In this document: in pieces, positions 923-3,487 of the stretch
Layout: each line of letters begins with the position of its first letter
Numbering within the stretch: the first letter of the stretch is position 1
DNA from: a virus
Reading direction: 5' to 3' (one strand)
IMG/VR virus record: IMGVR_UViG_3300047352_000034
Location: 1-32,326 of that record
DNA: 32,326 nt
Program-made: the position numbers and the translations under genes
The notes under the pieces: model-generated
The model's input: only the letters and a program-made list of their open reading frames with translations
Told to the model about the DNA's origin: nothing
Database searches by the model: none

Positions 923-3487
923 TTAGTCGCTTGATTTACAGAATGAAACTGCATGTCTTACAGCAACATCAACAGTTTGTAGAGCAACAATTCTTACTCC
1001 ACCTGAAGTTGATAATGCATAAGGGTCTACGGAAATATCTAAACCGCCATACATACCAATTAATAAGTCAGCAAAGTTTCCAAAGTAGAAATCACCACTT
1101 GTTACTTGATTACTTCTGATTACGTTATAACCATTCATTGTGTTATCAGGAGATACAACAAACTGAGCAGTACCAGTAGCCTTTTCAGTTGTTTTTAAAG
1201 TACCAAAGTCTGCTGGTCTACAGATATATCCTAATGAACCAGTTAAAGCGTTATCGTTAGCAACAGCACTTTCCATAGCTACAATTTCAGCCCATGTTGG
1301 GTTAGCAGCAGCAAATGTAGTTGTGTTAATACCTGAAGTATTAGCAATACCTGTTGGTTGACCACTTGAACCTGAACCAGCTAAAGCACCTAAGTCAATT
1401 GCAGTAGCGATTGATTTAGTTAAGTCATCTCTGATTAAGTTCTCAACATCTAATGAAGATTGTTGTAATAAGAGTCTTGTTGCATCAGTAAAAGCACCGA
1501 TTACTTTAGGAGACATTGTTACTGAACCTGAAGTAAATTCTGATTCAGCAGCAGCACTACCTTCTGTAGCAATCCAGCCAGCAGATGAAGCAGCAGTTTT
1601 CTTAGGTATAACCACTGATCCCTGCAATCCCCTTAATAATGTGCTTCCAGCTTGCATTACTGAAGATTCATTACGTAAGACATCAATATAATCCCCACCC
1701 CTGTAATCTTCAGCTATTAAAGTTGAATCATCAGATGAGTTGATGTCTCTTTTGCCCCAATTTTTTAGGACTTCAGCAGGTAACATAATACCAGTTGCAT
1801 CTTTACCATATTGTCTAGCAGCTTCAGCAGAACATTCAAATTCAAATTCTGCATCTTTTTGTGCTTGTCTGTCAGAAGGATTAGCCATAGCTCTAATTGC
1901 TTTTACTAGGCTAAAGTCTCTGACTTCTTCTTTAGTCATGCCAATTTCTGAAGGAGTTTCTAAAGGAGTGTTGTTAGAAATATTTTCTAATAATACACCT
2001 CTAAATTCTTCAACAGAGATACCATCACTAATCGCTTTGTCAGCTAAATCTCTTTTGTTGTGTTTTACAGCTAAATCTAAGATTTCTTTTGAATTTCTTT
2101 TAAATTCAGCTTTAGCTTCAGCAACAGTTTGTGATCTAACTTCATCAAGATTAATTTCTTGTTTTTCGTTTTCCATTATTTTCACCTTTGTTGTTTTTGT
2201 GTTTTGTTTATCTTTAGAACGACCAACTCCGACTAATCTGCTTTGGTCTGCTGGTACACTTACAGAAGAAACTTCCATAGGAGTCCATGCAGCCTTGTAG
2301 TAGACTTCATCTTCGTTATTCATTCTTGTTAAGTTATCGACTCTGTAGCCAACAGATATATTCATACGAATACCATCAACTACATCTTCAAACACTTCTC
2401 GAGCTAAAGCAGATTTACCAAATCTAACTACAGCAGTTGTCCTTTTTGCTGTCTCGTCTAGTTTGAATTCTTCAATTACACCTATTTGCTTGGTCATATC
2501 GTGATCCAAGAGAAGAGGTGCTCTACCGCTATTAATAAACTCCATGTTTATATCATCGGCTGAGTGTCCTAGCACTTCCATGCCAAAACTTCTCTCTACA
2601 GGTTCTTCGCTAGAGACACCTATACGAACCATTCTTTTTTCTTCATCTAAATAAGAGTGTTTTGATAAATCAATAGTTCTATATTTCATAGGCATATCAA
2701 TTACTTTTCTCTCTTCTTCAGATTCAGTCATAGAAACTTCGTCAGTTGCTTCTAGTTCTTCACCTTCATGTTCTACATCCTCATGCTTTGCAAATTCAAC
2801 AACTACAGAGTTGTCTGTCTCACTAACATTGAGGATATGTCTATCTTCTTTATTCATAGCTTTCTCCTCTTTATTTTTAGATAAAGGATGTTTTTCCAAT
2901 TCATTAGAATTGAAATCTTTAAAATCCCTAATGGGATTAATCTTTGTTAAAGTGCTAAATTTATGTCCTACTTCAATATCTGTAGGTTCACCACTTCTAT
3001 AAACTTGTATTAATGCTGCTGGATCATCTTCTGTACCTGTAATAGTTAATTCGCTGTTAGGTATATTTATTTTTCCATCTCGTTCTATTTTTATTATCTT
3101 TCCTCTAGCTCTACCACCAGCACTATTCCAACTTACAAAATCGCCTACTTTTAAAGCATCAGGCATAGCTCTATCTTCATTCTTCATTTGATTTACCTTT
3201 GTTTTTGACCATCTATAACCAGCATCGCCACCCCACAATGCCCATGCAATTCTTCCATTTGATGGATAACCTTCTTCACCTTGTTTAAAACCTTCTGCTT
3301 GCTTATCTACTTCATGTCTTGAGAAGAAGCTATACATTCTTTTGACTGTATCGTCAGATAGGTTTTCACCAGCTACTATTTGTCTTGCTCTTACAGCACC
3401 AACTCTAGTACCACCTCGACCATGCTCTTCTCGCCAGTCAAGACCTCTTTGAGCTTCTACTTTCATTCCTTCAGTTGGCTTAGGCAT
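923..3487 (-). CDS. Fused head maturation protease and HK97-fold major capsid protein
   Basis: One 854-codon frame carries four recognisable parts. Residues 1-100 hold a domain with R-G-G-T-x-V-G, an MYSFFSRHEVDK block and GYPSNGRIAWALWGG, seen in other capsid-associated proteins. Residues about 111-182 resemble the HVA1/DUF2945 Tudor-like domain (VGDFVSWNSAGGRARGKI). Residues about 265-425 are an HK97-type (U35) prohead protease with His329 in LLLDHD and Ser378 in NISVGYRV. Residues about 440-510 are helical and charged like a scaffold (delta) domain, and 595-854 are the HK97-fold capsid with IPKKTAASSAGWIATEG. The start ATG has a purine-rich SD and overlaps the portal stop by 8 bases. Internal ATGs at residues 101, 211 and 438 each follow an SD, and 211-437 and 438-854 match the sizes of stand-alone protease and capsid proteins. 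Whether it is made as a polyprotein, as nested products, or both is open. Confidence 0.9.
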   Translation of the reverse strand: MPKPTEGMKVEAQRGLDWREEHGRGGTRVGAVRARQIVAGENLSDDTVKRMYSFFSRHEVDKQAEGFKQGEEGYPSNGRIAWALWGGDAGYRWSKTKVNQMKNEDRAMPDALKVGDFVSWNSAGGRARGKIIKIERDGKINIPNSELTITGTEDDPAALIQVYRSGEPTDIEVGHKFSTLTKINPIRDFKDFNSNELEKHPLSKNKEEKAMNKEDRHILNVSETDNSVVVEFAKHEDVEHEGEELEATDEVSMTESEEERKVIDMPMKYRTIDLSKHSYLDEEKRMVRIGVSSEEPVERSFGMEVLGHSADDINMEFINSGRAPLLLDHDMTKQIGVIEEFKLDETAKRTTAVVRFGKSALAREVFEDVVDGIRMNISVGYRVDNLTRMNNEDEVYYKAAWTPMEVSSVSVPADQSRLVGVGRSKDKQNTKTTKVKIMENEKQEINLDEVRSQTVAEAKAEFKRNSKEILDLAVKHNKRDLADKAISDGISVEEFRGVLLENISNNTPLETPSEIGMTKEEVRDFSLVKAIRAMANPSDRQAQKDAEFEFECSAEAARQYGKDATGIMLPAEVLKNWGKRDINSSDDSTLIAEDYRGGDYIDVLRNESSVMQAGSTLLRGLQGSVVIPKKTAASSAGWIATEGSAAAESEFTSGSVTMSPKVIGAFTDATRLLLQQSSLDVENLIRDDLTKSIATAIDLGALAGSGSSGQPTGIANTSGINTTTFAAANPTWAEIVAMESAVANDNALTGSLGYICRPADFGTLKTTEKATGTAQFVVSPDNTMNGYNVIRSNQVTSGDFYFGNFADLLIGMYGGLDISVDPYALSTSGGVRIVALQTVDVAVRHAVSFCKSSD
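2174..2189 (-). promoter_or_regulatory. Internal ribosome site before the capsid part (Met438)
   Basis: AAAGGTGA lies 5 bases before an in-frame ATG, exactly where the protease part ends and the scaffold/capsid part begins. Starting here would give a 417-residue product, the normal size of an HK97-type capsid precursor. Confidence 0.55.
2855..2870 (-). promoter_or_regulatory. Internal ribosome site before the protease part (Met211)
   Basis: AGAGGAG lies 6 bases before the in-frame ATG of Met211. This is as strong as the SDs of separate genes in this genome. Initiation here would skip the N-terminal and Tudor-like domains. Confidence 0.55.
3185..3200 (-). promoter_or_regulatory. Possible internal ribosome site before the Tudor-like part (Met101)
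   Basis: AAAGGT lies 7 bases before the in-frame ATG of Met101, at the boundary between the first domain and the Tudor-like domain. It is weaker than the site before Met211. Confidence 0.35.

Follow-up and report, generated by a model that had tools for sequence, protein, structure and literature searches.

The window analysed is the whole of an IMG/VR virus record, 32,326 bases in length. On its minus strand, a single uninterrupted frame of 854 codons runs from an ATG at 3487 to position 923, and its 5' end overlaps the end of the portal gene. An earlier note on this DNA had read the frame as a joined protease and capsid protein, which is verified by the frame and its translation. The parts of this marine phage gene, indicated below as the query gene, are reported in Table 1.

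Table 1. Features of the fused gene, listed in the direction of translation, with the evidence on which each is based.
Feature	Position	Strand	Basis
Fused frame: N-module, TUDOR, protease, scaffold-like segment, capsid protein	923..3487	-	open frame, translation, domain matches
N-module, residues 1-105, predicted helical	3173..3487	-	phrog_2859 match, predicted model
SD-like AAAGGT before codon 101, unconserved	3195..3200	-	sequence, relatives
ATG codon 101, Met lost in several relatives	3185..3187	-	relatives
TUDOR domain, residues 115-166; absent or replaced in relatives	2990..3145	-	PF11160 match
Codons 196-218, raised synonymous conservation around site 211	2834..2902	-	close-relative alignment
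SD AGAGGAG before codon 211	2864..2870	-	sequence, relatives
ATG codon 211, putative protease-scaffold-capsid start (644 aa, 70.2 kDa)	2855..2857	-	relatives, model ranking
Protease domain core, about residues 286-423, ending with the PAD..VGVGR motif	2219..2632	-	phrog_617, alignment, predicted model
SD AAAGGTGA before codon 438	2182..2189	-	sequence, relatives, survey
ATG codon 438, putative scaffold-capsid precursor start (417 aa, 44.4 kDa)	2174..2176	-	relatives, survey, ranking
Scaffold-like (delta-type) segment, about residues 438-588, mostly helical at 447-560 (predicted)	1724..2176	-	model; HK97 analogy
HK97-fold capsid protein, residues 589-854, and stop codon	923..1723	-	PF05065 at 600-851; 8gta_A at 589-848

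Residues 268-852 match positions 9-621 of the 626 of profile phrog_617, annotated as major head protein (E=2.3e-145), a single match extending from the protease to the end of the capsid protein. The HK97 fold of the C-terminal part is indicated by PF05065 (E=1.4e-41) and by PDB chain 8gta_A (E=2.4e-45); since the latter is a solved capsid chain, the mature shell protein probably corresponds to the last ~265 residues. The upstream domain is a predicted head-maturation protease, in which the conserved H and S columns of alignments A1 and A2 are present. The predicted full-length structure is of low confidence (mean pLDDT 56.4) and served for disorder and domain limits only; disorder (pLDDT<50) is predicted at residues 188-277 and 411-454.

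The segment between N-module and protease (2834-3173) is a hotspot of shuffling: in seven loci, 85-96% identical in the remaining protein, the TUDOR domain is present, missing or swapped for a DUF5824-like (PF19141) module. The N-module also opens a 657-codon, coil-containing and otherwise unrelated-looking protein of Vibrio phage 1.013.O (L104, 4001-4309), encoded upstream of the capsid gene, and has a match in a capsid maturation protease of phage DSL-LC01. It could be a module used repeatedly in head assembly. A locus 93% identical across protease and capsid is found in the SAR86 single-cell genome AG-390-L11, which hints at SAR86 as a possible host.

Within the query gene, in-frame ATGs follow SD-like sequences at codons 101 (AAAGGT, 7 nt spacer), 211 (AGAGGAG, 6 nt) and 438 (AAAGGTGA, 5 nt), as the earlier note had reported. 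According to the predicted disorder, 211 and 438 sit in linkers; 101 is located by the model inside the last helix of the N-module. The 25 in-frame ATGs were ranked by a simplified start-strength model of our own, based on SD pairing, spacing and local folding, and codons 1, 438, 101 and 211 occupied ranks 1 to 4, in this order. This single-sequence ranking is partly circular, because the sites had originally been picked by their SD. For this reason relatives were surveyed, and the comparative survey provides the independent evidence.

Close relatives were represented by 80 viral loci, 62-100% identical in their best segments. At site 438, an SD followed by ATG is kept in nearly all of them, although the encoded residues differ, as in the variants TKVKIMENE (aaaggtgaaaataATG), NIEVKLMENE (gaggtaaaactaATG), FKEIKMSEDK (aaggagataaaaATG) and NKEIIMTEE (aaggaaattattATG). 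Because of these differences between haplotypes, a synonymous-rate test was replaced at this site by tests of SD occurrence and by shuffling. Strong boundary sites are found in the Roseobacter phages CRP-811, CRP-406 and CRP-823/831 (taaggag, ggagg and aaaggag). The site is also present in the fused genes of coliphage ep3, Enterobacter phage Arya, Acinetobacter phage Alexa, E. coli phage Bas97, Pseudomonas phages Persinger and PPpW-3, Achromobacter phage Mano, Burkholderia phage Mica, VP882, phiHAP-1, RcCronus and Stenotrophomonas phage S1. In Bas97 (HeidiAbel_Bas97), it is located at codon 217.

Alignment A1 was used to scan bacterial genomes and viral contigs for a wider set, to which the above phages were added. 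The resulting 246 fused loci were reduced to 109 representatives, less than 80% identical to each other, from many hosts and ranging from GC-poor to GC-rich. A boundary hit was defined as an SD of at least 4 nt, spaced 4-11 nt from an ATG located no more than 60 codons past the protease motif. Such hits were detected in 99 of the 109 fusions, the 10 representatives in which a 4-nt SD is missing at the boundary including the cyanophages and Xanthomonas FoX2. Other windows inside the protease and capsid domains contain an SD-ATG mostly in 6-27% of cases; windows further upstream score higher, because the gene's own start falls within them. Synonymous shuffles, preserving protein and codon usage, yielded 55.6+/-4.0 hits, with a maximum of 66. 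Related sequences in the survey are not fully independent; the excess persists after clustering at 50% identity, where 30 of 35 are observed and 17.3 expected.

Local mRNA folding is weakest at the boundary ATG, and GG is found at -10 in 57% of the first ATGs past the motif, compared with 7% of other in-frame ATGs. In 102 of 109 fusions (10.9 expected), no other start within protease core and capsid ranks above the boundary ATG. The signal is independent of GC content (20/23, 27/29 and 52/57 in the low, middle and high classes), and the SDs use all three reading phases, with linkers of 1-58 codons. In Faecalibacterium phage FP_Epona and Dulem virus 34, protease and capsid are encoded by separate genes, the latter of which opens at the same boundary, after AGGAGG or GAGGAGG; the internal start of the fusions thus occupies the position of a gene start.

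The combination of an SD-ATG kept while residues and SD phase change, an excess over shuffling, low mRNA structure and coincidence with the starts of split genes strongly supports codon 438 as an internal translation start. Analogous sites are found in other fusions: the 629-codon gene of roseophage R4C contains GGAGG-ATG at codon 189, and in the fused gene of Gifsy-2, annotated as Clp protease, AGGAG-N9-ATG at codon 221 is the best-scoring start of the gene. In a second capsid family, the best-scoring ATG is again at the boundary in RcKvothe, B8b, Shewanella phage 1/44 and S1 (codons 214, 198, 205 and 207, respectively), a 4-nt SD being absent in Shewanella phage 1/44. This second set is small and lies outside the shuffle tests; together, the data point to a hidden capsid start as a general property of protease-capsid fusions. 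Spectra from B8b virions cover 42.7% of the 685-aa fusion, a share similar to that of the mature capsid part, and are compatible with either a nested start or proteolysis (PMC4294664).

At site 211, gaggag or aaggag followed by ATG is present in nearly all of the 80 close loci, and codons 196-218 rank with the windows of highest synonymous conservation in the gene. An SD-ATG at the start of the protease module is also found in CRP-406, CRP-823/831 and cyanophage S-CBS3. As judged from the alignments, the site is conserved and under synonymous constraint in relatives bearing extra N-terminal modules, and it is probably a nested start. Four frame breaks were seen among the relatives, one of them in CRP-823; all precede the protease module, and the SD-ATG of 211 is intact in each. 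Three consist of a single inserted or deleted base, in at least two cases at a short homopolymer, and may be sequencing errors; the breaks were used only as a hint. Initiation at 211 would yield residues 211-854 and not the 211-437 product anticipated in the earlier note: no stop codon is present at 437, and a free protease of this size would need proteolysis. In other branches, four loci carry an additional SD-ATG immediately before the TUDOR module (e.g. MTDEVRAEPDEL; at codon 130 in L082), suggesting a further internal start there.

Codon 101 was rejected as a conserved start. Its SD is degenerate or missing in most close relatives, Met is changed to TTA, CTA or TTG in three of the loci as well as in CRP-811 and CRP-406, and synonymous conservation is below average. 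The nested translation proposed in the earlier note is accordingly retained strongly for 438 and as probable for 211, and is unsupported for 101.

The same observations bear on other explanations. The SD-like sequences could be a by-product of linkers rich in Lys and Glu, whose codons spell SD-like DNA. K or E do often precede the Met, and synonymous shuffles still yield about half of the cases; 99 sites were nevertheless observed against the 55.6+/-4.0 of the shuffles, genes of high GC content show the signal equally, and first rank goes to the boundary ATG in 102 of 109. Chance composition is considered very unlikely. SD-like pausing at domain boundaries has been proposed in the literature, and the full-length fusion might be the sole product, its SD-like sequences slowing ribosomes for folding without any initiation. 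The location of the sites in predicted disordered linkers between domains would suit such a role. Pausing, however, requires neither a fixed spacing nor openness of the RNA at an ATG, whereas the distance from SD to ATG is fixed in spite of linkers of very different length, RNA structure is minimal at the ATG, and the capsid genes of split-gene relatives begin at the same boundary. This explanation is regarded as improbable.

The sites could also be functionless relics of a recent gene fusion, as the earlier note had suggested as an option. Separate protease and capsid genes do exist, in FP_Epona and Dulem virus 34, and close relatives show evident shuffling of the N-terminal modules. At 438, however, fusions that share only about 35-40% identity with the query still carry the signal, more often than synonymous shuffles predict and with flanking residues changed; neutral relics would decay over such distances, and the option is unsupported for this site. 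A relic, or a recombination boundary, is less firmly excluded at 211, because the clade in which this site is conserved is younger. Overall, a relic origin is considered very unlikely.

The reading preferred here, and held to be highly probable, is that the fused frame consists of in-frame nested genes, in which a plain scaffold-capsid protein made from codon 438 co-assembles with few protease-bearing subunits. Ribosomes starting at codon 1 would make the full fusion with its protease (93.8 kDa, as computed), those starting at 211 a protease-scaffold-capsid protein devoid of the N-terminal modules, and those starting at 438 an ordinary scaffold-capsid precursor, the bulk subunit of the shell. 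The minority of protease-bearing subunits would co-assemble through the common scaffold-capsid part, placing the protease inside the procapsid at a low ratio, set by the nested starts; the protease would then trim the N-terminal parts of the precursors, producing the mature capsid protein. The sites themselves are observed, as is a strong and widespread comparative signature of initiation at 438, seen for 211 in the clade with the N-module; use of the sites, ratio, co-assembly and processing are inferred.

A quantitative consideration is compatible with such a mixed population. The shell of R4C is described as T=7 with 415 copies of the capsid protein (PMC10276861; PDB 8GTA). Residues 1-437 of the query amount to 49.4 kDa and, if present on all 415 copies, would add ~20 MDa of protein, by a rough estimate near the inner volume of a T=7 procapsid, given a geometry which is that of R4C and may not be that of the query phage. 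Crowding of this order would follow from a full fusion in every subunit, and a mixed population would avoid it.

It is also likely, with somewhat less confidence, that fused phages generally keep a hidden capsid start across protease types, one frame giving both protease-bearing and plain subunits, and that the query clade has several nested starts. If this is true, the main start is wrongly annotated for many major capsid proteins in databases, and in many phages and prophages the main capsid precursor is predicted to begin ~150-440 codons further downstream than annotated. If used, the internal starts would explain how fusion phages avoid hundreds of proteases per procapsid, a puzzle of stoichiometry, and in-frame nested initiation would reach beyond scaffolds to the shell protein itself.

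In lambda, the scaffold Nu3 is nested in frame in the head-protease gene C (Shaw and Murialdo 1980, cited in PMC8508860). As in C/Nu3, the query has a putative internal in-frame start with a ribosome-binding site in a head-protease gene, recognized by its sequence and comparative signature, and the C-terminal product would share its end with the long form. Unlike lambda, where the inner start yields the scaffold and the capsid protein has a gene of its own, the query frame runs through the capsid protein to the stop, so that the inner product would be a scaffold-capsid precursor, with further nested starts. The protease gene of phage Mu (I/Z) likewise has a nested in-frame scaffold start; there, in contrast to the query, only the scaffold is made from the inner start and the capsid protein is encoded separately. 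In MD8-like phages, gp5 combines protease, scaffold and capsid protein in a single gene, for which an internal start is not described in the MD8 paper (PMC8508860). This single-gene arrangement, shared by the tripartite capsid gene of Gifsy-2, is that of the query; in both, however, the protease is of Clp type, by annotation or modelling, and the N-terminal modules of the query are absent. A 'tripartite capsid gene' that is the subject of a paper cited in the literature is presumably that of Gifsy-2. The putative inner products of the query match in size and order HK97 gp4 (protease) and gp5 (delta domain plus capsid), which are encoded by separate genes in HK97 and fused in the query. The R4C capsid protein (PDB 8GTA) is homologous to that of the query, the R4C fusion being without N-terminal modules; the covered parts of the R4C paper mention neither a protease fusion nor an internal start (PMC10276861). 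An internal capsid start in protease-capsid fusions was not found in a literature search, which covered few subscription journals and is therefore weak proof. In-frame nesting of scaffolds and single genes for protease, scaffold and capsid are thus known; the new element, as suggested by the comparative data, would be the capsid protein as the nested inner product.
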